Shown: piece by piece, positions 23,564 through 42,497 of the stretch
How the letters are laid out: the number at the start of each line of letters is the position of its first letter
Numbering within the stretch: the stretch's first letter is position 1
Assembly: GCA_008477525.1 (NCBI GenBank)
Contig: SPDT01000003.1
Coordinates: forward strand, 2,480,001-2,544,000
From: Hypomyces perniciosus
Lineage: Eukaryota > Ascomycota > Sordariomycetes > Hypocreales > Hypocreaceae
Length of the DNA stretch: 64,000 nt
Direction of reading: 5' to 3'
Notes under the pieces: generated by a model
Told to the model about the DNA's origin: nothing
Seen by the model: the letters and a program-made list of their open reading frames with translations, nothing else
The model's database searches: none
Made by a program: the position numbers and the translations under genes

Positions 23564-24424
23564 TTAGTCAAAGAACCCGCGCCCGCCAAACCTGTTGCCA
23601 ACTTGCACCTTGGCCTGGCCCTTTGCTGCCACAGAACCGGCGTGATTCATCGTCCGATCCGGGATGTTGTTGCCCTGAGACACGGCACTGTTAGCCCACT
23701 GGCTGCCGAGAAGGACGTATGCCGACTCATCGGCGTTGAGGTTCTGGATGTAGTTGTTCCCCTCGGCTGAGCCAGCCTTCTTCTCAACGGCTGCCGACAT
23801 GGCATCATCAACGCCAGAAGCAGCGTCTTGAAGGGCCTTCAAACTTGTCTCGTCCGTTACCTCCTCAATTTCCACCTCAACAAGTACGCTATACGCGGTG
23901 ATCCTCTCAGGGAATATCTTCTCGAGAGCATCCACGAACTCGATGATGTCCTCCAGCAGCTTGGTGAATTGCTTTGCGTCGTAAAGCGCCCATGTCGCCT
24001 TCTTCAGGAACGTCGTGCTTTTTTGCCTCTCGCGAGCTAGGCGTTTGAGACGGTCATGCAATTTCCGAATCGGCGGCTGCAACTCCTTCTCGTCAAAGCG
24101 CGGTGCCTTTTTGTCCGCCTCATATCGCTTGGATTTCTTCTGGGCGCTCGCAAAGAGCCCGTCAATCTCTTCCAGAATATCTTGGATCCGTTGGCTGTCC
24201 CTGTCCGGAGGCGCATTGGCGCGGAAGCGAGGGTCCTCGTTGATCTTCACGGCCACGCCCCATCGGGTGAGCCGCACTCTAGCGACGTCGAGTTTGAGTT
24301 GGCAGCGTTGGAAGTCTTCACCGAAGTGACGAGCTAATTGGATGTACTCGAAGCACTCGACGCAGTTGTTAAATAGTGCAGCAACGCCCAAAGCGCCGCT
24401 TACCGTGCCGAAGACTTCGGCCAT
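23564..24424 (-). CDS. het-S: HET-S-like protein: HeLo domain plus C-terminal HRAM amyloid domain
   Basis: Single exon of 286 residues, close to the 289 of Podospora HET-S. Residues 1 to about 225 match the helical HeLo domain in layout: a hydrophobic N-terminal helix (FGTVSGALGVAALFNNC) that in HET-S inserts in membranes, then CFEYIQLARHFG and a WGVAVKI block. The C-terminus carries two HRAM repeats: R1 about 235-256 (AYVLLGSQWANSAVSQG) and R2 271-286 (AKVQVGNRFGGRGFFD), with a 14-residue linker. This is the HET-s/S prion-forming beta-solenoid plan, including the aromatic end. Residue 33 is His, the residue known to favour the active HET-S over the prion HET-s type. The protein is inferred to execute cell death when its amyloid part is templated by the divergent receptor gene. 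No intron is needed. Confidence 0.92.
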   Translation of the reverse strand: MAEVFGTVSGALGVAALFNNCVECFEYIQLARHFGEDFQRCQLKLDVARVRLTRWGVAVKINEDPRFRANAPPDRDSQRIQDILEEIDGLFASAQKKSKRYEADKKAPRFDEKELQPPIRKLHDRLKRLARERQKSTTFLKKATWALYDAKQFTKLLEDIIEFVDALEKIFPERITAYSVLVEVEIEEVTDETSLKALQDAASGVDDAMSAAVEKKAGSAEGNNYIQNLNADESAYVLLGSQWANSAVSQGNNIPDRTMNHAGSVAAKGQAKVQVGNRFGGRGFFD

Positions 24425-25506
24425 CTTGTGGTGGGTGGAAAGACTGGGGTATTGGTATCAGGTGGATGTTTGAAGATGTCCGGTTGCGGAGGAGGAAGGG
24501 GATCATGTCAAACTAGTGAAGGCGTTCAGTGATTAAATAACTAAGACATAGAAGTACAACATGGGGCTGGCCAACAGAATCCAGACACGACAAATCATGA
24601 TTGCCTTCTCGGTTGGGCATCAAACAAGGCAGACAGCGAGCGGGGGTGCTGAAGAAAACGGTCGTACATACAAGACGCACCTATCAGAACCGCACGTGAT
24701 GCTAATGGGCCAACGCATGCAGAAACCCATGCTTATATGACAGAAATTGATGAGGCAGTGCTTTTAATTTGCTGGGGTGAGGGTCGACATCGTCATCGTA
24801 GAAGTTCACAGAAGACTGCTGCACAGATATGCCCGTTGCTTCAGGCACAACCGACACCCCCTTCATAGATAGCTGTAGGCTTTGTAGCCACACTTACAAC
24901 TGGCTCTATTGGGGTACATGAGGCTCTGGTCGGAGATGCTCATACCGTACCTAAGAGCCTTCAGAGCCTGATGGAAGAAAGAGCCTGAAAACCCCACGTG
25001 GGTTTTACAAGGACTTGGTATCACTGACGATTGGTGCTTTTCAATGTTCGGCTATATCATCAGCCACATGTGGGTGAGCACGAGACCAGATGTTGTCCTG
25101 TCTCTTATCGAATCATTTATGCCATCCTGGCGGCCTGACGTCGGTGAGTTAACTATTGTATCTCGGAAACTAGGACGGTCGCACACAAGTCATGGATGGG
25201 AAAGTGGTTGCCTTTTGCCTTGTTGAAGACCCCTACTTTAAAGCTTTGAGCCGCGACCGCTTGTTGAAAATGGCATGGACATACGGCTGTGTATATGTTG
25301 GACTTGGCTTCCCGTGGCCTGGGCCTGCGAGTCTTTCTTCACATTCATGACAAGGCCATCGTCAACTAAGACTCGAATCTATTTCTCCTTTGGCGGAGCA
25401 GTGGCTTTATGTGAGTATGATGAAACGATTCACACAAAGTCAAGCCGCTAACATCGGTGAAGTACTTTGCTGAGGGTATCGTCTCGGCATCGCAGATACG
25501 AGCACC
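24425..25506. promoter_or_regulatory. shared divergent intergenic region of the het-S/nwd2-like pair
   Basis: 1.08 kb separate the start codons of the two divergently transcribed cell-death genes, so it must hold both promoters. I see no repeat or ORF of note. Co-regulation is inferred from the arrangement only. Confidence 0.5.
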
Positions 25507-28500
25507 ATGGCAATGAGTACACTCAACAGAGCCGATGAGATCATCGCCTCGGATAATGCCAAGGTCCAGATCGGCAACAATGTTCATCACGGGAACAACT
25601 TTTATGACATCAAGAACACGACGGAGCATAGAGATCCTATTGTTGAATGCCTTGTTGACCTGCTGGATACTGACCCTGAGGTTGAAAAAGGAAAGATCGA
25701 GAATATCAGAGGCGGACCGCTCAAGGACGCATACCAATGGGTTCTAGATCACGAGGATTTTCGAACCTGGCGTGATGATGAACAATGTCCAATGCTTTGG
25801 ATTAGGGGAGGTCCTGGGAAAGGAAAGACCATGCTCTCGTGTGGAATCATCGACGAATTACATCCATCATCGAGGTTGGCGGGTGAAGAATCGGACACTC
25901 TGCTGACATACTTCTTCTGCCAAGGCGCTGATACACGCCAAAATAATGCCTTGAACGTGCTCCGCGGCCTCATCTACCTCCTTTGCCACCAGCAAACCTC
26001 TCTTCTTCAACGATACGTACTGCAGAAACACAAGCTAAACAAGCACTTGTTCGAGGGCGAGAACGCTTGGGTCTCTCTTTGTGCGATATTCCGCAATATA
26101 TTACGCCATAAAGACCTCCCACTCACATATGTGATTATCGATGCTCTTGACGAATGCGAAGGTAATTTGCACGACCTATTGCAATTTATCTACGATTGCA
26201 CGAAAATCTCGCCACGGATGAAATGGCTTGTCACAAGTAGAAACTGGTCCAGGATCGAGGGACACCTACGCTACGTCAAGATTCTCGATCTGGAGGTGAA
26301 TAAAGAGGCAGTGAATGCTGCAATTGAGCACTATATCCGGGAAATGGTGCGAAGGCTGGACTTGAAAAACAACTACAACGAAGAAACCCAGTCGACTGTC
26401 GAAAACTATCTATTGAAAAACGCCAATGGTACTTTCCTCTGGGTGGCACTGGTCTGCCAATCCCTACGAAATCTGGGGCAAGCCCGGAGTTCAAAGATAC
26501 TTGAGACCCTCAAGACTTTCCCTCCAGGACTGTCTGCTCTCTATCAGAGAATGCTGGATCAGATACTCGCCTTCAAGTCCTGTGAGAGAGATGTTTGCAT
26601 GAGGTTACTCGCTGTGGTAGCCACCGTCTATCGTCCGTTATCACTGGAAGAATTGGATACCTTCGTTGAGCACCACGAGGAAGACAAGGTTGAGCGGATT
26701 GTCGAACGTTGTGGTACCTTTCTCATCGTTCGAGAGGACAGGACTGTTGACTTCGTCCACCAGTCTGCGAAAGAGTTTCTGTCAGCACATGCCAGTCGAC
26801 TCTTTCCTTGCGGTGTGGAAGAGATGCACCAGAGACTTTTTGAGCAATCCTTGGGTGCCATGTTAAACACACTACAGCCTGATATGTACAGCATAGAGCA
26901 TCCAGGCATTCCAATCAGCGGTATCAAAACGCCCACGCCAGACCCGTTATCGCGAGCAAGATATCCCTGTGTCTACTGGGTTGACCATCTTTGCAATGCC
27001 ATCACGGAAAAAAATACCACACTGTCATATGTCCTCAAGGACGATGGAGCGCTGGATCGGTTCCTCCGTGAGAAGTACTTGTACTGGCTCGAGGCACTCA
27101 GCTTGCTCAAGAATATGCCAGCAGGAATGAAGGCTATGACAAAACTCGAGACACAGCTTGTAAGTTGATTTAACCCCGTTGAATACCATCACAAGCTAAT
27201 AAGATTTCACAGAATGGGCGGACCGGTTGCTCCAAATTGCTTGCTCTGGTACAAGATGGACGCCGATTCATCATGTCATTCGGCTCGGTCATCAGCGACG
27301 CACCTCTCCAGGCATATGCATCAGCCCTGGTCTTTAGTCCCGAGAAGAGCATCATAAAACAATTATTCAAGGAGGAAATGCCAGGCTGGATAGAATCCCG
27401 ACCAACTATGACCGACAAGTGGGATGCGTGTCTGATGACGTTCGACGGACATAATGAGAAGCTTTCTCAGGCCTCGATTGCGTTTTCACCCGAAGGACCG
27501 CGCGTTTTGACAGCGTCAGAGACACATGGCACCATCGACATTCGAGATGTTAGTGTCCAGGAGGCCAAAACGCAGGAAACGCACATTGATACTGCCAGTA
27601 AAGTTCTCGATACCGCGATTTCACCCTGTGGCCGGAGTGTTGCTATGCGATTATTCAGTGACACTCGCATTTGGGATGTTGCAGTCACCCCCCCTAAGCG
27701 AAATGTCTGTTTCTATCACTCCAAAAAAACTGAAATAACGTCGTTTTCCTTCTCAGACAATGGCAAAACTATCGCACTCGGTTTAGATACAGGCCACGTT
27801 CAGCTTTGGGATCCTGCAGTACGCAAACGCAATGGCACTCTCAGAAGAAACAACAACAGGGTCTCTTCAATCGCTGCCTCACATGATGGTCAGTATATCG
27901 CATCAAGGTTAAGATATTGCGATGACCGTGACATATCAAGGCCAAAGGGGTGTATGAGGTCAGAGATGCCACTGGACTGCTCCATCGAGATCTGGAACAC
28001 TAAAGCCAGCCGCTCGGAGAAAACGATCAGCGGACACGACATGCTTGCTGGACCGATCACCTTCTCACCGCAGGGCGAGTACATCGCATCGGGCATCCAT
28101 GGTGATACCTTCAAGATCTGGAATGCTAATACTAGCAACTGCCAGACAGCGATAAGAGGCCACGAGGGGGAAGTTACAGCAATCACTTTCTCACCTGATG
28201 GGAGGCGTGTCGCGTCAGGCTCTAAAGACAGGGATATTAGGGTCTGGGATATCACCACTGGTGACTGCGAAGCAACACTTTCGGGCCATGTCTCAGGAGT
28301 CATGTCGATTGCTTTCTCACCTGATGGCGAGCGAATCGCATCGGTATCAGGCGACTCTGCCATCAAGATCTGGGATGTGGCGAGACACTACGACCAGAAT
28401 AACCTTGATTTCCATAAACACGAGATTCAGTCCATCGTGCTATCGCGAGATGGCCAACGTATTGTCTCGTTGGACCAGGGCTATCTCAGAATATGGGATA

Positions 28501-29552
28501 CCACCACTGGTTACCGCCAGGGAACAATTGGTGCTCGCAGCTATCATGACACGCCGATCGTTCTCTCTCCTGATGGCCTTCGTATCGCATCAGGGCTCGA
28601 TGACTTCAACATTACGATCTGGGACGGAAGGACTGGTTGTTATTGGTATACGCTCAAAGGCCATGTCGACCGGGTCACATCAATCGCCTTCTCGTCTGAT
28701 GGTCAACTTATAGCATCAGGATCAAGAGACAGAACTGTGAGGATTTGGGATTCCTTGCATCGCCGTTGCCGGGCTACTTTTGATGGCCATGAGGGAGAAG
28801 TCTGGTCAGTGGCCATCTCACGTAATGGGCAGTTTGTCGCAGCAGGGTCACAGAGATCCATCAAGATCTGGAATGTCGCCAATCGTCGCTGCCAAGCAAC
28901 TATTCGCGGTGTATTTTCCAAGCCTATTACGTTCTCACCTGACGGTGAGCGTATTGCATCGGCGTCACGAAAATCGGTCAAGATCTGGGATGCTATGAGC
29001 GGGTGTTGGGTAGTCATGATTCCCATGGCGCATGACGTCCAGTCTGTCTCCTTTGACAAGACCGGCAACAATATTCTTACAGACGCTGGAAAGTTCAAAA
29101 TCAGTGAGGGAATACCTCCACCATCACAACCGAAAACAATATGGCATCAACTGCTCGGGACCACACCTGAGTATACTCCGCATCGTCCTGATGGGTATGG
29201 CATCAGTGCCAACAAGGACTGGATTACCTATAGAGGACACAACATTCTCTGGATCCCCGCAGAGTATCGTCCTCAAGTGGTGGCAATTTCAGGATTAAGT
29301 TTCGCCATGGGTTGTCGGTCAAAACGGGTCGTGCTATTTCGCTTTACCCAGGGGACGCCTTACAAGCACTTTTCGCAGAAGACAGCAGGGCCTCGGGGCG
29401 AAGCAATTCGTGAGGCTCTTCAAGAACCACTTGAGAAAATATTTTCTTTACTTAGTGTCTATTTGGTTTTCATTTTCGCTTTTTGTCGACCATTTCTATG
29501 GTCATCGCTATCGTCAAGAAGGGCCGGTATGGTCCAACGACTAAAATCCTAG
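25507..29552 (+). CDS. nwd2: NWD2-like STAND receptor: HRAM motif, NACHT, WD40 repeats
   Basis: Two exons, 25507-27159 and 27213-29552 (53-bp intron, GTAAGT/CAG, phase 0), give 1330 residues. The N-terminus carries an amyloid HRAM motif at about residues 17-36 (NAKVQIGNNVHHGNNFYD) that resembles the R1/R2 repeats of the neighbouring HeLo protein. The NACHT domain follows, with Walker A GGPGKGKT (101-108) and Walker B YVIIDALDECEG (208-219). From about residue 630 to 1160 there are some 12 WD40 repeats of the type FSPDGxRIASGSxDxxIKIWD, rather diverged from each other, then a unique tail with a hydrophobic stretch near the end. NWD2-type receptors oligomerise on ligand binding and seed the HET-S fold. 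The divergent gene next door is the matching effector. An alternative in-frame Met two codons later does not affect the motif. Confidence 0.92.
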
Positions 29553-29703
29553 TGTAAGATCGTTAGTTACTTTACATATGAATGATCTATCCATCTAGCT
29601 ACTACATGAGCTGTTGAGTAACGGAACGTCTCTGGTGTGAGACTTTGTTGTGAGCACTGTCATGTCACCCCTGTGAACGAACCAAGGTTGAAGGCTCAAC
29701 AAC

Positions 29704-30110
29704 TTGGAACCTCCTGAAAACTGGCCTTCCAGAGGATACATCGAGTTCAAAAATATCACTGCATCCTACCAGTACGTATCCTGTCGAAAGCCGCTCTTGA
29801 TGATAGCTACAAAGCCCAACATCTAGACCCGAGTCTGTTGCCTACAGAATCTGAGTCTGAATATTACCGCAGGTCAAAAACTCGGCAGGTGAGTCACTAC
29901 ACACGGTACATATTATTCATCTGAGGACTCACTCTATATATTAGCGGTAAAAGCACGTTACTCTTAACTCTCTTACGGCTTCTGGAGCTGTAATCCGGCA
30001 AGATTGAGCTAAATGGCATTGATATCAAGCAAGTGAGGCTAGATTTGCTACGACAACGGTGCTTCATCGCGGTGTCTCAAGATCCTCTGCTTTTACCCAA
30101 CGAGACATTG
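29704..30110 (+). pseudogene. remnant of ABCC-type transporter, second nucleotide-binding domain
   Basis: Translation from 29704 gives LEPPENWPSRGYIEFKNIT, typical of the entry to NBD2 of MRP/ABCC transporters. A broken part follows, then GQKLG near 29874-29888 and, after an intron-like gap, SGKSTLLLTLLRLLEL at 29943 (Walker A tail). An in-frame TAA at 29991 stands where CAA would be expected, then SGKIELNGIDIKQVRLDLLRQ and SQDPLLLPNET. The signature (C-loop), Walker B and all membrane domains are absent. It is a decayed fragment. The CAA-to-TAA change is of the RIP type (CpA to TpA). Confidence 0.75.
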
Positions 30111-30503
30111 TGGCATTGATGGCAGATGGTAGATTACAGGAAGTCATTGAAGACTTAGAACCAGCGACTTTCCCGCGTTTTAGGCAGATGGAATAGAGGT
30201 ACACTGGTGGCTTTGAGAGGGTTCCCGGCTGAGCATTTAATATGAGAAGTTCATTTCTGTATACAGCAACCACAATGCTATGTATCATAACGAACTATCT
30301 GCTTGACCGCAGAAATGGAAATGTTTGTGGATTATTGATGTTTAAACCGATTATTTGGTGAGCACTACTTGTAAGAATTAGATACTATTGGAACAATATA
30401 TTTATTTTTCTGGTATTATTTCTTTCACTTCATGAATGTTTTGTTAGGTGTTTTCTTTTTCCGGGTATCCAAGTCCGCCTAGTGTCGTCACTTTGCCAGC
30501 TGA
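30111..30503. other. intergenic region
   Basis: About 390 bp of AT-rich sequence between the ABC remnant and the 3' end of the hydantoinase-family gene. No gene seen. Confidence 0.5.
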
Positions 30504-33491
30504 TTATGGTCCATACTCCCGAATGACACTCTTGGGCTCTACGTATGTGCCGAGAGGCTTGTACTCTATGTCGTTGTATCCAAATGACTTTGGTCCACCA
30601 ATCTCAATGCCCAATGGAATATCTGTCCATCTTGGGGAGCAAGTGATGCCAATCACAGTAACACGGCACCCGTACTTGAATTCAGGGACACCCAAGGCTC
30701 GTCCGCTGCCGTTGTCAAGGACAGCGATTAGATCAGGCACCGAGGTAATGATACGGGTTGTCTTGCCATCTTCCGAGGTATGCTCTGCGAAGATGTTCTC
30801 ATTCTTGAAGGGGATACGTAGGGTACCGCCAGTAGCGACGGCAGGGGCACGACCACTGCTGTTACTCTCTTCCTCGTCATTCTCACCAAAAGCCGCAATG
30901 TGGAGCGTTCCGTAAGAGTGGCCCTTGAAGAGACGGCGCTCAATCGCAACAATCTTGCCGCGGAACAAGACCTTGGCTGCTTCGGAACCACCAGCCTCTT
31001 CGATGATGGACTCGGCAACGGTAGAGAGGCGGTTGCTAGCCTCGCAGCGAGCGATGCTTCTGCCGATGCGCCAGGCAAGAGAGCAAGTGTTCAAGACACC
31101 GTAATCGCGAACATACTCAGCTTTTGTCGGTCTGGCCGCCATGCCCACTCGGCTACCCATCTCGGAGGTTGAGGCTCTGAGAGCGCGGTCGACGATTTCG
31201 TCATTTGATGTGCGTGTCATGACAATGCTCTTGCCATCTCCTGAATCGATGGCACAAGGTACCAACTCACCTGGCTTATGGACAGCGAGAGTCGTCTGCC
31301 AGTATGTAGGATAGGCACGGCCCATCCAGTCTCCATCAATGACGGGGGCATCGAAGAAGCGTGAGGATCCCACAAGCATGGGCTCCATACCGTTGGCACC
31401 ACCAATCTCCAGGCCCATGACAGCGTCAATCTTCTTGTGGCCTAGATACTCCATCAGGACCTCGAAGGCACCTACTGTCTCGAGAGACTGGAGACGCTCG
31501 ACTGACACTGCGGGGGATCCCATGTGGCCACCCCAGTAGATGATGTCGTCTTCCTTCAGAGCGGAATGGTCAATGATGCGGATAGTGTGGCCGGCACGGA
31601 CGATGTCGCGCAATTGGATGAAACTCGGGGCTGGAGTACCACCGCCAGCACATCCAAGCACATAGCAGCCATCGGCCAGCCACTGAAGATCAGTCTCGTT
31701 GAGGAGCCACTCAGGGACACCCTCGGCATTCAGCTTGATCTCTGGCCTGTAGGCGAAAGGGTCAACGTGGGGGACATCAATAGTTTTGACGGCCAGGTTC
31801 TTGGACTCTTCAACAGGGATCTCGACATCGTATCCATCGTCCTCCTCATCTTGAACCTGAAGCAGTGCCCCTGCGTGGAAGTCGATGTCACCAACCGCCT
31901 TGACAATTGTGCGGATCTGGTTGGCGACGTATTGCAGCGGGATGCTCTCCACTTCGGCGATAGATATGCTCTCAGGAATAGCACCGGTCTCAATAGCTCG
32001 CTTGACAGCCAACTCTTTGGCATGTTGTATAGCCTGTGCCTCGGTTTGATTGGTAGTGTTCTGTACAATATCCACACTTCCGCAGACACGCGAGATGGCG
32101 GCACCGACAGCGTTGGCCACATCATGGAAAGGCGGCCGGATGACCTTGGAGGCACCAGAAATGTTATCTGGCGCAAGGACGGCACCGCCACCAACCAAGA
32201 GCACGGGCAGAGGCTCCGCCGATGTCTTGATAACGTCGACAGCGCCATCTAGCAACGTTTGGATGCAGGCCTTGGCTTGCTCAACAAAGTCGGGGCTCAG
32301 ATGGGCGACCTTGGACTTATCTCCCATTTCCGCAACTCCAAGGGCCACAGCAATGTCAGAGGCTGTGCAAGTCTTGCCGCCGAATACGAGACCCTCTTCG
32401 AGCAGATAGTGGCCGACGGACTCCGGGCCAACCTTGACTTTGCCATCAACTTCACGGACATGAGAGCCACCACCAAGGCCAACAGAGTGCAATTGCGGCA
32501 TAGAGTAGTTGACTCTCACTCCGGTAACCGTCACATACGCAGAAGCCTGTCTGGGAAGACCACTGGGGAGGATGACACCAACATCTGCTGTGGTACCACC
32601 AATATCGACAACGATGGCTGATGAATCACCGCCAGCATCAATGCCGGCCAGGTAGGCAGCACCTCGCATGGAGTTTGTGGCTCCCGAGGAGAAAGTCCGA
32701 ATGGGAACCTTGGCTGCCGATGCGGAGTCCAGAATGGTGCCATCGTTTTGTGTGATGAACAGAGGGCATGTTAGGTTGAGCTTCTTCATAGCAAGACGGA
32801 ATCGCTTGACCGTTTTGCGTGCGTATTCAAGGATAGCGGCGTTGAGAATACTGGCATTCTCTCGCTCAAGGAAACCAATGTTGGCCACCTCATGAGAGCA
32901 GACAACATCGACACCAGGCAGCTCCCGCTGGACAATGGCCCGCACATGGTTTTCTTGCTGGAAAGTCTCATCTATAGGAGAGAAGACACCGGCGATGACG
33001 ACGGCGCTCAGACCAAGTTCCTTGATCTTCTTGCATTCCTCGACGACCTGGTCCTCATTAATGGGCGCCTCTTGTGAGCCATCGATGTGGAGTCCTCCGT
33101 CGACAATACAGCAGTAGCCGTTCAAGATGGAGGCCAGATCCGCTGGGAAGTCAGAGAAGGGAGGCACCTCACGGAGGAATGAGCGAGATAGACGCAGAAC
33201 CGCGACTTTGCGCAGTCGACGAGCGTCTCTCTCCAGGACGGCATTGATGAAGTGTGTCGTGCCGACAGTGACACTGGCGATGCGGGATGGATGAATGTTC
33301 CCAGCCTCTATGACAGCTCGAACGGCCGTCTCGATACCAGCGGTAGCATCGGGTGTTGTGGGCGTTTTCTTGAATGTGATAACGCCTCGGTTGGCGTCAC
33401 CCTGGGAGGCCAAAGCAACATCGATGGCTACAGCATCGGTGTTGGTTCCGCCGACGTCTACGCCAATGCGGACAGTCTTGCTCAGGGTCAT
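30504..33491 (-). CDS. hydantoinase/oxoprolinase family protein fused to DUF917
   Basis: Single exon of 995 residues. The N-terminal half is hydantoinase A/oxoprolinase: the phosphate-binding start VRIGVDVGGTNTDAVAID (residues 7-24), GTTHFINAVLE near 78, the central LFITQNDGTILDS and the second nucleotide motif IVVDIGGTTADVGV near 297-310. The C-terminal part from about residue 595 is DUF917 (S-methyl-thiohydantoin desulfurase-like), with GCAGGGTPAP, GGHMGSPAVSVERL, ANGMEPM and DGDWMGRAYP. The combination is common in fungi and bacteria. These enzymes open hydantoin-like or 5-oxoproline-like rings using ATP; the substrate of this one is unknown. The divergent NCS1 permease suggests an imported hydantoin, allantoin or related N-heterocycle. 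Cytosolic, no signal peptide. The 242-residue opening on the other strand (31524-32252) is a shadow. Confidence 0.9.
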   Translation of the reverse strand: MTLSKTVRIGVDVGGTNTDAVAIDVALASQGDANRGVITFKKTPTTPDATAGIETAVRAVIEAGNIHPSRIASVTVGTTHFINAVLERDARRLRKVAVLRLSRSFLREVPPFSDFPADLASILNGYCCIVDGGLHIDGSQEAPINEDQVVEECKKIKELGLSAVVIAGVFSPIDETFQQENHVRAIVQRELPGVDVVCSHEVANIGFLERENASILNAAILEYARKTVKRFRLAMKKLNLTCPLFITQNDGTILDSASAAKVPIRTFSSGATNSMRGAAYLAGIDAGGDSSAIVVDIGGTTADVGVILPSGLPRQASAYVTVTGVRVNYSMPQLHSVGLGGGSHVREVDGKVKVGPESVGHYLLEEGLVFGGKTCTASDIAVALGVAEMGDKSKVAHLSPDFVEQAKACIQTLLDGAVDVIKTSAEPLPVLLVGGGAVLAPDNISGASKVIRPPFHDVANAVGAAISRVCGSVDIVQNTTNQTEAQAIQHAKELAVKRAIETGAIPESISIAEVESIPLQYVANQIRTIVKAVGDIDFHAGALLQVQDEEDDGYDVEIPVEESKNLAVKTIDVPHVDPFAYRPEIKLNAEGVPEWLLNETDLQWLADGCYVLGCAGGGTPAPSFIQLRDIVRAGHTIRIIDHSALKEDDIIYWGGHMGSPAVSVERLQSLETVGAFEVLMEYLGHKKIDAVMGLEIGGANGMEPMLVGSSRFFDAPVIDGDWMGRAYPTYWQTTLAVHKPGELVPCAIDSGDGKSIVMTRTSNDEIVDRALRASTSEMGSRVGMAARPTKAEYVRDYGVLNTCSLAWRIGRSIARCEASNRLSTVAESIIEEAGGSEAAKVLFRGKIVAIERRLFKGHSYGTLHIAAFGENDEEESNSSGRAPAVATGGTLRIPFKNENIFAEHTSEDGKTTRIITSVPDLIAVLDNGSGRALGVPEFKYGCRVTVIGITCSPRWTDIPLGIEIGGPKSFGYNDIEYKPLGTYVEPKSVIREYGP

Positions 33492-34848
33492 GGCTTCAGT
33501 CTGTTATTCTTGAATAGTAATGGTAAAGTAAATAAAATGAGTGAAATGAATGCTCCTTTTTAGACCTTGTCTCGCTATGAAGCAGACGGGCGACTCATCC
33601 AGACAGAGACACAGGACAAACAAAAGACGACGGCCCTCAAATTATCAGCCGCCAATCGACGCTCATCTATAAGTTCGAGGCTCCGGAATTCCGGCTTCGG
33701 ATACAATGGACTCGTGTTAAAGCAAACGATTACCCAACATCAATATTGGGTCGTTATCTTCGCGCTACCGCCCCGAAGAATAATGAGCGGATGTTATCAA
33801 TAAATATTGGAAAATTGCCGCCACCTCCGGTCACCGTCTCCGGTTATTTATGTAGCGTTTCCCACTTCTCCTTGGGAAAAGGAGTATTAGGTGGCTCCCG
33901 AATATCGGTTCGGCTTTTAGCCGCTATCAATGAGAGCCGCTATCAGCGACTAGCGAATCGCATGATAAGTCTTACTCGTATTCAGATGGTGGAGTTGGCC
34001 CAACATTCTAGCGTTCTGGCGAGAGTAATCCGACGCTTATCATCATTCAGTAGTACTACTAACATGAGTCGGTTTACGATGATTGGGAGGCTAGTACACT
34101 TGGGCCGATTTCGTCCCGTGTCTGATCCTCGTAAACGGGATTTCCCCATTCCAGACTCCCTCTCCGTCCTTTATCTTTACTTGGTCTCATCTATCTTTCC
34201 ATGTAGTGCTGGTGTATAGAGTTGTCTTGAGATCATGTCGTCTTGAAAAATCCACAACACATTAAGCCTTGGTCATGTAATAATAAGTAGTAATGTAGCA
34301 ACACTAGTGAGCACTACTCTGAAAGGAGTGGATGCCTATACTACTTGCATATCTCATCCCAGGAACCACATGTTGGCCGCGTGCATCCGTGGGGGGAAAA
34401 GCTGGGGTATGGAGAACTATTCATTCGTTATCCGAGGTAGCATAGTTATCCCAGACCTGTGTGTTCCGTGGCATCTCCATAGCTTCGTAGAACCCACATG
34501 CAGGACATCCCGTTTTGGTATTCTATCTTGCGTAATGATAACCGACAGTTGGTCGATGATAATAACTGATTGGAGCTGAGTGATGACAACCCTAGAGCGA
34601 TCCGGCTATGATCAGCATCATTAACCGGCTAAGTGTGGCTTGGCTTCAATGTCTGTTATCTCGTAGCGTCTCCACTATCCCTGAGACCCTGATTCAGTGT
34701 CGATAAGGTTTCTCAGCGCCCTTCGGTCTTGGTGGTATAATAGAGAAACACGATCGTGCCCTGTTTGTCGCGTGAGTCTTGTGATGTGATCTCCATCATC
34801 TTCCATTTACTCCTCTAACACCCTATTTTCCTTTCAAAGTGAGCCAAC
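33492..34848. promoter_or_regulatory. GATA-rich divergent promoter region
   Basis: 1.36 kb between the divergent hydantoinase-family and permease genes. I find at least a dozen HGATAR-type cores on either strand, for example at 33642, 33754, 33794, 33924, 33940, 33963, 34037, 34171, 34191, 34523, 34536 and 34656. AreA/NIT2 GATA factors activate nitrogen-scavenging genes through clustered sites of this kind. The sites are seen; the regulation is inferred. No gene is supported within the stretch. Confidence 0.55.
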
Positions 34849-37058
34849 ATGGTCGTTGCCTCCTTCAAAAAGTGGGCTCGTTTGCCCAGTGTTGACGGCA
34901 CCCGCGCCAACATCTGGATCTTGTTGTTGTTGTTATTATTAACGTCCTATTGGTGCTAAATACACAGGCCTATCTAGGCATCTGGACGGTAGGAGCCAGC
35001 CAAGGTCTTTATCGCATCCATGGATACAATATTGGGTCACCTCCACGTGGTCCTGTCAGTTCAAGACCGGCCTAACTGGCCAGCAAGCTGCCAGAGAATA
35101 GCCGGAGGTGTTGACCTTATAGCCGTTCGCTACGTTTCGCCGGACAAAGGAAAGGATTCGAGGCCTAGGGCCTCAGGATTCAGGCACCAGGATGAAAAAC
35201 CCTCCTTGCAGAGGGGAAAAACCTGAGTGTTGGCTGCTGAGCCCTCTATGAGGTCTAGCAAGTGGTTCAGGGCAGGCCGAGGCTTGCGAGCCAACATCTG
35301 GATCAATGACGATATTCGTCCTTTGGAGCCAGCAAGGCGAACTTGGGGCACTATTACCTTCATATCTTTCTGGTTAGTGAACCAGGTTGCTAGTATGCCT
35401 CTCCCAAGTTACGAACAGGCTTTTCCAAGCCTAGCAGTGCAACATTGAACTAACAGGCGCTCAAAGTTTCAAATTGGCAGCTTGGAGCATCCCTTGTGGC
35501 GACTGGTCTTAGTGTCTGGCAAGCCATTCTTGCCACTATCGTTGGCAAGATCATCATCAGTTTTGTCGCCATCTTCAATGGCTTTGTGGGCGCAGAATGG
35601 CATATCGGCTTCCCTGTGATGTCACGATATGTCTGGGGCCCCTATGGATCATTTATCCACATTGTTCAAAGGATCATTCTCAGTCTGGTGTGGTTTTCTG
35701 TGCAGTCATGGACCGGTGGCCTTTCCGTTGCCGTCATGCTGTCAGCCATCTTCCCCAGCTTCCAGAATCTCCAGAATGTCTTCCCGGAGTCTTCGCACCT
35801 CGAGACCAAGCAATTTGTCGGCTGGATTTTGTTCAATGTAGCCATGGCCACGGTCCTATGGATTCCTCCCCACAAGGTTCAGCGCATGCTTGCCTTCTTC
35901 AACCTTGCGGCATCAATCACCCTCGTCTCTATCATGATTTGGTCTCTGGCCAGGGCTCAAGGTGGCGGCCCTCTGCTTTCCGCTACGTCAAAGCCCATGA
36001 CCTCCTCAGAACTGGGATGGAATATTGTTTCCGGTATCAGCACAGTTATTGGAGGCATTGCCGTGGGCTTGACCAACCAAAACGACTATAGTCGGTTCGC
36101 CCGCAAGCCTGGTGACCAGGTTTTCGGACAATGGTTCTCCATCATGTAAGTTTCAGGCCTAACCATCATGAAACTGGGAGGAAGAATTCTGGGTGTCTAA
36201 TTCTGAGTACAGGTTTTTCGGAACCCTCTTCCCTCTGTTTGGCTGCCTCACTGCATCTGCCACTCAAGGCATCTATGGCCAGGCCCTCTGGAACCCTCGT
36301 ATGTTGCAACCCAGTTCGCCCCCTCGTTATTTACTAACAAGCCATGATTAGCTGTTATTTGCCAGATGTGGCTTGACGATGGCTATACTTCCGGTTCCCG
36401 AGCTGCTGCTTTCTTTGCTGGCCTCGGTATCCTTCTCTGCCAGGTCGGTATCAATGTCACGGATAACGCGTTCAGCGCGGGCATGGACCTTGCCGGTCTT
36501 CTCAGCACTTACTTCAACATCCGTCGCGGCGCTTATATCGGCTTGATTCTCAGCATTTGCCTCTGCCCATGGGAGCTCCTCTCCTCCGCCGCTGTCTTCA
36601 TCTCGGTCCTGTCGGCTTATAGTGTCTTCCTCGGACCCGTTGTCGGTATCCAAGTGTGCGAGTACTGGGTCCTTCGTAACCGCCGTATCAAGCTCAGCGA
36701 CCTGTACAACCCCAAGCCAGACAGCATCTATTACTATTTCCACGGATTCAACATCAGGAGTTTCATCTCCTGGGCGCTCGGATTTGCGACTCAACTTCCA
36801 GGTTTTGCCCAAGCCGTCACTCCAGACAAAGTCCAAGTCTCACAGGCGTGGACCAACCTGTATTATCTCGCATTTCCTCTTGGTTTCACAATTTCCTTCA
36901 CAGTGCACTACATCATCAACAAATTCTTCCCACCGGAGGGACTTGGCGTCATTGATGATGTTGACTATTATGGAACCTTTACCCCAGAAGAGACTGCAAA
37001 ACTGGGCATTGAACCTTATGATTCTGTAGGAATAGAGGCTAAGTCCGACAGTGCATGA
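34849..37058 (+). CDS. NCS1 nucleobase/allantoin/hydantoin permease, first exon interrupted
   Basis: The ancestral start appears to be the ATG at 34849, reading MVVASFKKWARLP and on to RANIWI, where a 384-bp insertion begins and adds a stop about 36 codons in. After it the frame resumes with ANIWINDDIRPLEPARRTWG, the conserved NCS1 entry. Exon ends and starts after the insertion are 35392/35467, 36145/36213 and 36298/36352, with GT-AG introns of 74, 67 and 53 bp; each join restores an expected codon (Ile, Met, Pro). The rest holds the usual dozen membrane spans and ends at 37058. Minus the insertion it would be 543 residues. As it stands, an ATG at 35248 inside the insertion is in frame and would give 538 residues with a new N-terminus. 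It may therefore be functional with a replaced start, or a young pseudogene. Family: proton-coupled uptake of purines, allantoin, uracil or hydantoins. Confidence 0.85.
34906..34920 (+). repeat. left copy of 15-bp target-site duplication
   Basis: GCCAACATCTGGATC at 34906-34920 is repeated exactly at 35290-35304. Both copies are in the permease reading frame (encoding Ala-Asn-Ile-Trp-Ile), which is what a target-site duplication in a coding exon predicts. Confidence 0.85.
34921..35289 (-). mobile_element. SINE-like non-autonomous retroposon in permease exon 1
   Basis: 369 bp lie between two perfect 15-bp direct repeats. At the left edge is a run of four TTG followed by three TTA; read on the minus strand this is a simple TAA/CAA-repeat tail, as left by LINE-driven target-primed reverse transcription. 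The body has no coding capacity. A weak B-box-like string (CCTCGAATCC, minus strand, around 35157-35166) might point to a tRNA-derived head but is not convincing alone. The insertion adds a multiple of three bases (384 with the duplication) but carries in-frame stops. It also supplies an in-frame ATG at 35248. Confidence 0.7.
35290..35304 (+). repeat. right copy of 15-bp target-site duplication
   Basis: Exact copy of 34906-34920; see that entry. Confidence 0.85.
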
Positions 37059-38109
37059 CCGACTTTGATGTCGAGTTTGGACTTGGAAGCAAAGGGCTTT
37101 CAAGTACGGAATAATAATGTCTTGATGTTTCTTTAAAATAGCTAAATATATATTCAATCTAATAACAGACAGCACAGCCGTCTGGTAACCCTAGACAATT
37201 CTGGCCTTTATAATTGACTGATTGGCTCAATGATTACAATGAGTGAATGCTTACGAAGGAGGCACGGGGAATGGCCAATTTGGCGGCCCCAAGTAGGGTG
37301 GGATGGTCATTTGTGAGACCCCCCAAGTGTGTACGAAGTATGATCTGTTATACTACGCTTGCAGTTCGGTGGGGGTGCAAAATGGGGCCACCATTTTCCA
37401 TCGGTTCAGGAGTGCGAGCATATTTGGCGTCGCGAAATGGGATTGACCTTCATTATTACTACCAGAATCAGTTACGAGCACTACTATAACTCACTCAAGC
37501 TCTCCATAAAGAGGAAGAAATGGATTCACTGGTACTAATTTGACTAAGTTGAATCATTCGACTGTACGGAGCATGGACAGACTCGTATGCCTCGGCTCCG
37601 CAGTTTTTCAGGCTTCAAGGGGTCTCCGTATCCACATATCACACATACGTGCCGTTACATTTGTTGTATAACGCGTTGTGCAGACCATGGTCATCACCAT
37701 ACTCCGAGGGGGACTCGGAATCTTTATTCAATACCCTGCATCACGTCCATCCATCCAACAATGTTGGCGTTATCCACCAGCAATGGGTTGATTGGCTGCA
37801 CATCTGCACATTTTTATGTACGAAGGTATACGCCTTGTCAAATAATAATACACAGATGCTGTATTACTACGAGTATGGCGAGTGAACGAATCAGAACACG
37901 CCTAACTCTGCAGTCAATGCCCAAGACACGTGGTGGATGCCCAATTCTCGGCCTGGTCATGTCTTGGTCCTGACATGAATTCTAGAGTCATAAAGTCCTT
38001 ATCCCTACCTGCCTGTATTCCCGAATGCTCCACGTTGGGCTAATCATTCCTCTCTCGACTGAGCGCTACACGTTCCACGATTGCGTACGGGCCTTGTAAC
38101 TTACCCATC
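37059..38109. other. intergenic region
   Basis: 1.05 kb between the permease and the second STAND gene. One TACGAAGTA motif at 37332-37340. No gene supported. Confidence 0.5.
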
Positions 38110-41100
38110 ATGGAGGTTACCGGCGGCGTTTCCACTCTCCTCGACCTTTCTACGAGGGTCATCTTCCTGTGCGCCCAGTATTCCACAGGCGTAAAAAATG
38201 CCAAAGCCGAGATCAAAAAGCTTCACGACGAGGCTATCCAGCTCAAGGGGGTTCTGGAAGAGATCCAGAAGCTGTGTGACAGCCCTGATGGCGCGAAGCT
38301 CAGAAGCACCAGTCAGCTAGTCGACGCCATCCAGAATGGTAAATTGCAGCTGCAGAAGCTGGAGGAAGACCTTTCCCCTGAAAGAAATCATCAGTCAATC
38401 TGCTGCATCAGCCTGCGCACTCTGAAATGGCCCTTTCAGACCAAGGAGGTGGAGAAGATTATCCATGATATGAATCGGTACAGAGAGGTCATTTCTACAG
38501 CTCTTCAAGTGGACCAGACGTAAGTGAGCCATCTGTGAATCCCAAAAACCAATTCCTGACCCCTCATAAGGAACATCATCCTAGGTCTCTCTCAAAAGGC
38601 AGAGAAGGCAGAGCTGGCAGAGCTCAAACAACTCGTTGTTGAGGGAGCTGCATTTGACTCTGACTATGAGGGGCGCAGCCCGAAATGCCTCCCAAACACT
38701 CGGGTTGAGTTTCTCAAGGATGTAGCTCATTGGGCCGAAGACCCCAAGTCACACATCATTTTTTGGTTGAATGGAATGGCTGGAACCGGAAAGTCCACTA
38801 TCTCTCGAACAGTCTCCCAGTCCTTTGCGGAAAGCAAACACCTTGGAGCTAGTTACTTTTTCAAGAGGGGCGAAACTGACCGAGCCGGGCTATCCAAGTT
38901 TGTTACAACAATTGCTGCCGATCTGGTTGTCAAACAGCCAGCAATTGCACCCTTTGTGAAGGAAGCCATCGATGAAGACTCTATTCTGAGGAAGTCAGTA
39001 CCAGAGCAATTCGAAAAAATGATTCTTGAACCTCTATCGAAACTTTCGCCAAATTCCGGACACGAAGGCTGTGTTAAATCCCCCATCATCATCGTTGTTG
39101 ATGCCTTGGATGAATGCCAGGAGGATGACGATATGAGGCTCGTCATTGATCTCTTTTCACGCGCTCAGAATTTGCAGCATCCGAGGCTGAAAATCTTCAT
39201 TACGAGTCGACCCGAACTTCAGATTCGTCTTGGTTTCACGGCAATTAATGGACACTATCAGGATTTCATTCTTCACAGAATAGATGATTCCGTTATTAAG
39301 CACGACATTTACCTCTTTTTTCAGCACGAGCTCTTCAAGATCCGATGCGACTATAACAATTCAGTGCCAGTGGCCCGACGGCTGCCAGACTCCTGGCCTA
39401 GCGATGACAACATTAGAATTCTAGTGGAAATGGCTGCGCCGCTGTTTATTTTCGCGTCAACCATATGTCGTTTCATCAATGAACGCAGACATGGCAATCC
39501 AGAAATGCTCCTCAACAAGGTTCTCAAGTACAAAACACAAAGTCAGGAATCGAAACTTGATGCAACATATCTGCCAGTTCTAAATCAACTGCTCATTGGT
39601 CTGTCCGTACGGGAGAAGAATAATGTGGTTCAACAATTTCAGTACATTGTTGGATCCATCGTCATTCTTTTTAGCCCCCTTTCAACCACTGCGTTATCGA
39701 CGATTCTCGACGTTCACCTAGAAGCTGTTTATGCTCGGCTTGACTTATTGCATTCAGTCCTCGATATCCCACAGTCAGCAGAGGTACCAGTGAGGCTTCT
39801 ACATCTGTCCTTCCGTGACTTTTTGTTGGATCCAGAGAAGCGTGATAAGAACCCGTTCTGGGTGGATGAGAAAGAGGCGCACGCGAAGATGGCAGACAAT
39901 TGCCTGTGTTTGTTGAACACTCTGAAACCAGATCTCTGCGATATTCAAGCCCCAGGTACGCCACAGCAAGAAATCGACTGTGCTCTACCACCAGAGCTTC
40001 AATACGCTTGTTTGTACTGGGTCAACCATGTACAGCAGGCAGGAACTCAGCTCACAGATGGAGACCAAGTCCACGGGATTTTATTGCGCCATTTTCTTCA
40101 TTGGATGGAAGCATTGAGTCTAATGGGGAGAGCGTTTGAAAGCATAGGCCTGGTTCAAGTTTTGCGGTCCCTTGCGAAGGTGGGTAATTCACACATGTCA
40201 TATTCTATCGACTGACATTCACTGACAATCTTCAACACAGCCTCAATCTAGCCGAGAGTTATCTGAGTTTCTCGATGATGCTGAGCGCTTTATACTTGCA
40301 AACATCTCTACTATTGAGTCTTGGCCGCTTCAGATCTACTCTTTGCTAGTGTTTGCACCAAAAGAGAGTAAAGTGCGGATCACCTTCAATAACAGTATCC
40401 CCTCTTGGCTATCCCTTGCGCCAGAAATCGACTCAAAGTGGAGCCCATGCCTTCAGATTCTAGAGGGTCATCAAAGCGATGTAGTATCTATTGCCTTCTC
40501 TCATGACTCGGAATTATTGGTCTCGGGCTCATGGGACCATACTGCAAGGCTCTGGAACAGTAATACGGGCGAATGTCTACAGGAGCTGAAGCATAGTAGT
40601 CAGATCTACTCAGTCTCTTTTTCATACAACTCGACGCTTATAGCATCTGCCTCAGCAGATAAGTCAATCCGTATTTGGCGCACCAAAACAGGCGATTGTG
40701 TGCATATACTTGAAGGACATTCTATGGAAGTTAATTCAGTGGCCTTTTCACATAACTCATTACATATAGCGTCGGGAAGCGATGATGAAACAGTCCGTGT
40801 ATGGGATGCCAGCACCGGAAAATGTGTGTATACGTTTCTGGGTCATGACGACTGTATCTATTCTGTGGCCTTCTCGCACAATTCAGCGCTTGTGGCATCA
40901 GCGTCGAGTGACGACAGCGTCCGGATCTGGCAAGTCGATACGGCAACCTGCCTGCATACTTTTAGCACATGGCAACACTGCTCTTTCCGTTGCCTTTTCA
41001 CACGACTCTGCACTTTTGGCCTCTGGTTCATCAAGCGGACAAATACGAATTTGGAAAGTCGACACAGGCCATTGCGTGCATCAGTTCGACACCAAAACTA

Positions 41101-42497
41101 GCATGTATGTCTCTGTGGCCTTCTCGCCCAATTCGGCTCTTATCGCTTCTCCTTGGAGTGGCGAATGTATAAGAATCTGGTCAACGGATACAGGAGACTG
41201 CCTTCAAGAATTCAACGGCCACAGATTGTATGTTAAGTCAGTGGCTTTTTCGCACGACTCTAAACGTATCGCATCAGGCTCATTGGACAAGACGATCCGT
41301 ATTTGGAATGTCGATATTGAGGATGATAGTGCAGCCATTTTAAAATCCCCTCAAGTCTCACACAGATTGGGTCATAACATACAGGAATCCAAATGCCATA
41401 AAGGCGCCGTTCATTGTGTTGTCCTCTCGCCTAATGCGGTACTCATAGCGTCACAGGCTTACTCGGACGAGACGATCCGCATCTGGCGCGCCGATACTGG
41501 CGAGTGCATTCAAGAACTCAATCACGATGGAAACCTTAACTCGTCTCTGCCTCCTGTTTTTGCGCATGACTCGTCACTTCTCGCGTCCGGGACACACAAT
41601 GGTACAAATTACATCTGGCGACCCGATACAGGCGATCGTGTTCATCAATTCAAAAATTGTTTCGATTCAATTCTGGCTGCTGCTTTTTCTTGCGACTCGA
41701 TTTTTTTGGCCTCAGCTTCAGTGGACTTGAGTTTTAATAAAGGAGCTGTTGAAGTTTGGCGCGTCGAGACAGGTGACCGTATTCTCAAACTTACAGATCT
41801 TAGCAACGGGGTCGTCGTCTCCGTTTCCTTCTCGCCAAACTCAGCTCTCATAGCAACAGGCTCACGTGATGGCACAGTGCGGATTTATGATGTCAAAACT
41901 GGCAAGTGCATCCATAAACTGAAGGGTCATTCTGAACTTATTCGGTCAATTGCATTTTCTAATGACTCTGCACTCGTTGCATCTACCTCGAGTACAAATA
42001 TATTCATCTGGGGTGTTGACACAGGCAACTACGTGCGGACATTGGAGCACCCGGGCCATGATATAGAAATGTGGGTCACATCAGTGGCATTTTCAAACGA
42101 CTCATCGCTCATCGCATCGGCTACAACCAATAAGACTGTGGGGATCTGGAACACGAAGACGGGAGAGTTAGTCCAGGAGCTTAATCTCGGGGTTGAACCC
42201 CGCCGCCTAGAATTTGAAGGTGATCAGCTTCGATTAAATACGGATGCGGGCTCTATCGACATAGATGCCAATTGGCATCTGAATGCTTCTTCCGCCCGGA
42301 ACTGCCGTCGTTTTGGCTACGGCTTTGTTCAAGATGGACGCTGGATTATGTGGTGTGACGCCAACTTACTCAGGCTACCAATGGAATATGAACTTCAATG
42401 CTCAGCTGTGGCAGGATCTACAGTTGTAATTGGTTGTAACTCAGGTAGGGTCATTGTCATTGGCTTCTCAACCGATAATTTGCCAAAGATGATCTAG
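38110..42497 (+). CDS. STAND receptor: HeLo-like N-terminus, NACHT, about 13 WD40 repeats; one frameshift
   Basis: Exons 38110-38519, 38571-40179 and 40241-42497 join cleanly (introns 51 and 61 bp, GTAAGT and GTGGGT donors). The N-terminus (MEVTGGVSTLLDLSTRVIF, then amphipathic helices) fits the fungal HeLo-like/STAND N-terminal domain. The pre-NACHT block AAFDSDYEGRSPKCLPNTR, Walker A GMAGTGKST (205-213) and Walker B IIIVVDALDECQED (309-322) follow. WD40 repeats of the form VAFSHNSALVASxSxDxxVRIW begin near residue 743. At the TTTT run 40960-40963 the frame shifts by one base: the upstream frame ends at 41101 (959 residues, about four full repeats), while the downstream frame continues the repeats to 42497. 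Without the extra base the product would be about 1424 residues. It is either a broken allele or a sequencing/assembly slip. Likely role: ligand-triggered cell death or heterokaryon incompatibility. Confidence 0.85.

Follow-up and report, generated by a model that had tools for sequence, protein, structure and literature searches.

A candidate nwd2/het-S-type amyloid-signalling gene pair in the fungus Hypomyces perniciosus

In Podospora anserina the nwd2 and het-S genes are adjacent and divergently oriented (PMC3321046), and the N-terminal motif of the NWD2 receptor is reported to form prion amyloids in vitro, to induce the [Het-s] prion and to activate HET-S, the induction requiring an intact nucleotide-binding site (PMC4344463). 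HET-S homologues were described in 55 genomes, with an adjacent motif-bearing receptor in 46 of these (PMC4344463), and NOD-like receptor (NLR) genes adjoin 98 of 155 effectors that carry a HET-s-related amyloid motif (HRAM), according to PMC4518210. Here we describe a similarly organized gene pair in a 64,000-nucleotide stretch of Hypomyces perniciosus DNA (the window), corresponding to positions 2480001-2544000 of contig SPDT01000003.1 (C8) in assembly GCA_008477525.1, which comprises 44.0 Mb in 23 contigs. The pair very probably constitutes a canonical nwd2/het-S amyloid-signalling module of the HRAM1 class, with a HET-S-like effector on the minus strand and an NLR of the STAND (signal transduction ATPase with numerous domains) type on the plus strand.

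An earlier note on this DNA had proposed a divergent HeLo effector and NACHT-WD40 receptor forming a complete module of this type, and the pair itself is confirmed and its reading as such a module supported: the domains, a spacing of 1,082 bp and all three amyloid motifs were found, and the locus fits the published arrangement in its domains, adjacency and motif numbers, as well as by comparison with a similar pair in Fusarium falciforme. As in P. anserina (PMC3321046), the genes are adjacent and divergent; the effector likewise has a HeLo domain followed by two C-terminal repeats, and the receptor a NACHT-WD40 architecture preceded by one N-terminal repeat.

The effector and receptor genes

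The features of the locus, with the evidence for each, are as follows.

23564-24424, minus strand: HET-S-like effector gene, 286 residues, single exon, stop codon at 23564-23566 (open frame, PDB, Pfam, 150 homologues)
23831-24409, minus strand: HeLo domain, effector residues 6-198 (PF14479; Foldseek matches to 2wvn, 2wvo and 2wvq)
23699-23761, minus strand: amyloid repeat r1, residues 222-242 (alignment to the HET-s prion-forming domain, register, family counts, model strands)
23591-23653, minus strand: amyloid repeat r2, residues 258-278 (alignment to the HET-s prion-forming domain, Pfam, family counts, model strands)
23567-23590, minus strand: C-terminal glycine/aromatic loop FGGRGFFD, residues 279-286 (PDB alignment, register)
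24425-25506, no strand: intergenic region between the two genes, 1,082 bp (gene coordinates)
25507-29552, plus strand: nwd2-like NLR (STAND) receptor gene, 1,330 residues, two exons (frames, Pfam, homologues)
25519-25581, plus strand: receptor amyloid motif r0, residues 5-25 (effector-repeat profile; below the PF11558 cut-off)
25732-26241, plus strand: NPHP3_N/NACHT nucleotide-binding domain (PF24883, PF05729)
27160-27212, plus strand: predicted 53-bp phase-0 intron, GTAAGT...CTAAT...CACAG (sequence; keeps the exons in frame)
27450-29072, plus strand: WD40 repeat sensor region, limits approximate and set by eye (PF00400, 8 stretches)
29352-29549, plus strand: hydrophobic C-terminal extension of the receptor, 66 residues (homologue ends, hydropathy)

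Judged by its sequence, the minus-strand gene encodes a HET-S homologue. Its reading frame of 286 codons plus stop is uninterrupted, and the product matches both HeLo (PF14479, residues 6-198, E 3.9e-56, 190.6 bits against a cut-off of 23.2) and HET-s_218-289 (PF11558, residues 221-280, E 6.2e-16, 58.6 bits against a cut-off of 32.2). A search for homologues returned 150 proteins at E <=0.001, and both Pfam domains are present in 116 of the 120 listed; the best named relatives are from Fusarium, Dactylonectria and Tolypocladium, genera that point to Hypocreales. The pair is a diverged member of a documented family, the nearest effector found being 59% identical. Sequence searches of the PDB match the effector to the HET-S HeLo domain (2wvo, E 1.7e-71), and residues 219-286 to the HET-s amyloid domain (2kj3, E 2.9e-8).

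Structure prediction is in keeping with these assignments. AlphaFold2 was run with a 25-sequence alignment to give five models, the best of which has a mean pLDDT (predicted local distance difference test) of 78.4 and the lowest 54.8. The N-terminal domain of the model is mostly helical, and strand pairs are predicted at 223-231/236-239, within r1, and at the matching positions 259-267/272-275 of r2. In a Foldseek search the leading matches are chains of 2wvn, 2wvq and 2wvo (E 5.3e-20 for 2wvn), with four matches at E <=0.001 and TMt values of 0.89-0.93, so that the predicted HeLo fold is a further likeness to P. anserina HET-S, through 2wvo. Next after the HeLo entries are those of the HET-s amyloid, at E 0.12-0.16 and TMt 0.65-0.69, a structural match to the model that is suggestive only.

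Inside the span given in the earlier note (23564-29552) the receptor gene contains a predicted intron, whose donor is GTAAGT and whose acceptor is CACAG, with CTAAT as a branch-like motif. The two exons (25507-27159 and 27213-29552) are both open and join in phase 0. The product exceeds the Pfam cut-offs for NPHP3_N (PF24883, E 8.3e-36), NACHT (PF05729, E 7.6e-10) and WD40 (PF00400, E 3.6e-73), and contains GGPGKGKT at residue 101, VIIDALDEC at 209 and WLVTSRN at 240, which we take to be the Walker A, Walker B and sensor 1 motifs. Identity to the listed homologues is 43-49%, the top match being a WD40-NACHT relative from Paraphaeosphaeria. No tandem DNA repeats at a score of >=40 were found in the receptor gene (25507-29552), in contrast to the near-identical variable repeats of P. 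anserina nwd2 (PMC4344463). Near-identical WD repeats with concerted evolution are described in that paper for P. anserina; we do not take them as a requirement for the family.

The amyloid motifs

The two effector repeats were placed in the 21-position register of PMC4518210, and compared with those of the 120 aligned homologues, which gave 110 gap-free r1 and 115 gap-free r2 sequences. Two C-terminal repeats had been predicted in the earlier note and are indeed present, as the PF11558 match attests, although not at the positions stated there, about 235-256 and 271-286: r1 spans residues 222-242 and r2 residues 258-278. The aromatic tail occupies residues 279-286, beyond r2; the C-terminal glycine/aromatic region of HET-s has a published role (PMC4518210). 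Glycine at position 19 is invariant in the family repeats (110/110 r1, 115/115 r2) and asparagine at position 3 nearly so (106/110 r1, 111/115 r2). Both residues are present in r0, r1 and r2 of the H. perniciosus pair, as the HRAM1 class demands, and the hydrophobic residues of the core, at positions 5, 8, 16 and 18, are likewise retained across all three motifs. These are the points of likeness to the canonical HET-s (HRAM1) class as defined by Daskalov et al. 2015 (PMC4518210), from which the pair differs in having Tyr15 and Ser20 in r1 and a more charged r0. The earlier claim that the three motifs share a Gly-Asn core holds for the glycine at 19 and fails for the dipeptide, since r2 keeps Gly19-Asn20 together with Asn3 and r1 ends in Gly-Ser.

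The receptor motif r0 sits directly N-terminal of the NACHT domain, at residues 5-25, or 3-23 if translation starts at the second in-frame ATG at 25513, a position that differs from that in P. anserina NWD2. Its match to PF11558 (residues 4-24) reaches 13.9 bits, with E 0.055, against the cut-off of 32.2. This shortfall counts against the assignment and gives some room to the view that the genes lie side by side without being related and that the receptor resembles an HRAM by chance. Because of it we built our own 21-column profile from the 110 r1 and 115 r2 repeats, all from other proteins and none from the window. It was used to scan 746 open stretches, in the coding orientation, upstream of and into 30 of the genome's 76 matches to receptor exon 1 (those with a surrounding locus; some of the 30 are gene pieces lacking an N-terminus), with 20 shuffles of each stretch as control. 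The window receptor ranks first among the 746 (23.6 bits, E 1.9e-6), the best shuffle scores 7.3 bits, and second is a NACHT-WD40 gene at C22:2633605 (19.6 bits, E 3.5e-5), the next stretch reaching 5.9 bits; scored directly, r0 gives 27.7 bits. A motif lies within the first 80 residues at E <=0.002 in 7 of the 120 listed receptor homologues (out of 4567), including that of F. falciforme, directly before NACHT as in the window. A chance match is rejected on the independent profile and the shuffles, leaving the unrelated-neighbours explanation a negligible probability. The earlier suggestion that the STAND gene carries an HRAM-type motif before its NACHT domain is thereby upheld. Profile searches with HRAM and HeLo, named in the same note as a check, place both effector domains over cut-off, and recognize the receptor motif with the effector-repeat profile but not with Pfam.

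The closest pair found with consecutive locus tags, from which adjacency was judged, is that of F. falciforme, where FALCPG4_014828 (59% identity) corresponds to the effector and FALCPG4_014829 (47%) to the receptor; the latter carries an HRAM motif scoring 15.8 bits, and the domain order is that of the window pair. The F. falciforme receptor differs in its length of 1,181 residues, its visibly more uniform WD repeats and its lack of a C-terminal extension. Position 17 is histidine in both r0 and r2 of F. falciforme and glutamine in both in the window pair.

Proposed mechanism and alternatives

The oligomerisation, templating and membrane damage that we propose for this pair are modelled on work in P. 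anserina, whose steps are the likeliest by analogy. A ligand would bind the WD40 region of the receptor and the NACHT domain would then oligomerise, such that the clustered N-terminal r0 motifs could fold into a beta-solenoid amyloid. This amyloid would template the effector's r1-r2 tail, probably because r0 and r2 resemble each other, and conversion of the tail would free the hydrophobic N-terminal segment of the HeLo domain, enabling the effector to damage the plasma membrane and kill the cell.

Several further observations weigh against a canonical, working pair. In r1, position 15 is tyrosine, where 92 of 110 relatives have arginine or lysine, and position 20 is serine, where 87 of 110 have asparagine. 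Of the 21 residues of the receptor motif 5 are charged, the mean reported for r0 motifs being 12.7% (PMC4344463), and the arch residue at position 12 is aspartate. At the N-terminus of the effector, model residues 1-11 have pLDDT <50, and the most hydrophobic 19-residue stretch (residues 4-22) averages 1.48, against a median of 1.61 for the N-termini of the 120 homologues (range 0.32-1.93). The receptor also has a tail of 66 residues beyond the ends of seven compared homologues: six of these stop 5-6 residues past a motif that lies at residue 708 of the window receptor's exon 2, and the seventh, missed by the pattern, ends about 11 residues past the same motif. The simplest explanation is a lost stop codon with translation continuing into former 3' sequence; a role as membrane anchor is possible, the hydropathy of the tail peaking at 2.0 over 19 residues. 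This extension, the Gly-Ser end of r1 and a glutamate at HeLo position 23 set the pair apart from that of P. anserina.

The similarity of r0 to r2 speaks for the pair, but weakly. Among 116 family r2 repeats, that of its own effector ranks second against r0 with a score of 54 (best 62, median 40). Such a ranking is weak evidence that two genes are paired: in F. falciforme, r0 puts the r2 of its partner at only the 38th place among the 116, and an unlinked H. perniciosus receptor, C22:3634096, places the window effector's r2 5th of 116.

Drift in r1 together with a receptor that overruns its old stop codon raises the alternative that the genes are homologous but that the module is decaying, with signalling weakened or lost. 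Consistent with this are the absence of Asn20 and of Arg/Lys15 from r1, the 66-residue tail not seen in the seven homologues with comparable ends, and the presence in the same genome of both NLR matches with internal stops and a HET-S-type relic with stop codons (C4:6406564-6406742). Nonetheless, neither the effector frame nor either receptor exon is interrupted, all three motifs keep Gly19 and the hydrophobic positions 5, 8, 16 and 18, and single mutations in the asparagine ladder of NWD2 are reported not to abolish activity (PMC4344463). We consider decay unlikely.

Another alternative concerns the HeLo domain, which could be non-toxic as in the prion form HET-s, so that the tail polymerises and the locus acts in allorecognition rather than encoding an executioner. 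In P. anserina, H33P makes HET-S prion-like, and D23A and P33H jointly make HET-s toxic (PMC3531502). Within the HET-S-type set of Ala23, His33 and Glu86, the window effector keeps His33 and Glu86, the states of HET-S and a likeness to it, and has Glu at position 23. That residue is not the one in HET-S, and is acidic like the Asp of the prion form, which favours a prion-only effector and argues against an active one. Most of the family, however, has an acidic residue at 23 (85/120; Asp in 64, Glu in 21), and positions 33 and 86 are in the HET-S state; a prion-only effector appears highly improbable. The earlier note had taken His33 to mark the active type. As an argument this is weak, because histidine is the family default (88/120 homologues, with proline in 0/120; Glu86 is found in 82/120) and residue 23 is Glu; what stands is that His33, on sequence grounds, is compatible with activity. 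We thus retain a canonical nwd2/het-S pair as the preferred reading.

Other HeLo and HRAM-type genes in the genome and the window

Searches of the whole genome with the HeLo profile gave five matches at four loci, and with PF11558 seven matches at E <=10, two of them over cut-off: the window effector and the C4 relic. The window effector is the only intact protein found in the genome with a canonical HET-s tail. Three of the matches below cut-off lie directly before a nucleotide-binding domain, at C22:2633605 (NPHP3_N and WD40 in a 1,570-residue frame), C22:3634096 (NPHP3_N, E 7.3e-38, with ankyrin-like repeats seen by eye downstream, the frames not joined) and C4:5919004 (NB-ARC, E 4.1e-14, with an adjoining TPR frame, E 1.2e-66). 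Scored individually with the effector-repeat profile, their motifs give 25.1, 31.8 and 17.9 bits, respectively. A similar but weak motif (3.8 bits) is present at C4:5606121, where the NACHT match has an internal stop. Genome searches with the single motif sequences recovered the query loci and nothing more, except that r2 also matched the relic on C4 at 18.5 bits (E 0.148). The list of other HRAM1-type receptors, drawn mainly from the PF11558 search and the profile scan around 30 receptor matches, is to be read as a lower bound.

No HeLo gene was found by tblastn, with both effectors as queries, within about 10 kb around C22:2633605, C22:3634096 or C4:5919004. This raises the possibility, which we put forward tentatively and hold to be less likely than not, that the window effector is the sole working executioner for several receptors with HRAM1-type motifs; different sensors would then converge on one amyloid-gated pore former. 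Cooperation of non-adjacent genes has already been proposed (PMC9815663). Against such a hub, only C22:3634096 of the three places the effector's r2 high (5th of 116), the others placing it 68th and 36th. A HeLo-like match of 15 residues upstream of C4:5919004 (60% identity, E 0.021) was too short to count.

With a second HeLo gene that has a dissimilar tail, a broken effector, and receptors without an intact effector next door, the genome offers a natural test of one receptor-one effector pairing against a network in fungal amyloid signalling. The broken effector, at C4:6406564-6406742, is a HET-S-type tail with no HeLo match in the surrounding 10 kb. The TpA/ApT ratio of its 900-base bin is 0.95, compared with 0.45-0.55 in the measured window genes, and repeat-induced mutation could account for this.

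The second HeLo gene lies within C16:646500-656400 and has a different repeated tail ending in NARVHNGNTYTDVDDFWD, which the HET-s profile barely scores. The protein, at C16:651167, matches PF14479 (E 1.5e-48), the sole Pfam family found at E 0.001; PF11558 gave no match there at E 10, and the second tail repeat reaches 9.0 bits with the effector-repeat profile. Divergently oriented next to it is a receptor-like gene that has ankyrin-like repeats and, near its N-terminus, a stretch similar to the tail (HAKVHNGNTY), the receptor assignment and the similarity being judged by eye. This receptor-like gene does not figure in the 76 receptor exon 1 matches, and its motif, in a fixed 21-residue frame set by eye, scores poorly (-18 and -14) against the neighbouring repeats. 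The locus is possibly a separate pathway, with the pairing unproved.

Further HeLo-domain genes are located at C23:2595239 and C22:2730457. In the latter, HeLo is joined to DUF7580 (E 3.3e-10, over cut-off) and a weak kinase match (E 1.2e-4, below cut-off), a layout that strikes us as reminiscent of MLKL.

Within the window, the receptor gene is followed directly by what is presumably a fragment similar to an ABC transporter ATP-binding domain, with stops (29690-30180). At 30504-33503 is a hydantoinase/oxoprolinase-type protein of 999 residues with an S-Me-THD-like part (Pfam), with a top identity of 81% and best named relatives in Tolypocladium, Paramyrothecium and Fusarium. Further along are a frame resembling a membrane transporter (35454-37058, by eye) and another STAND gene (38044-42497) with NPHP3_N (Pfam); by eye it also shows WD40-like repeats, and an N-terminal region that looks helical.

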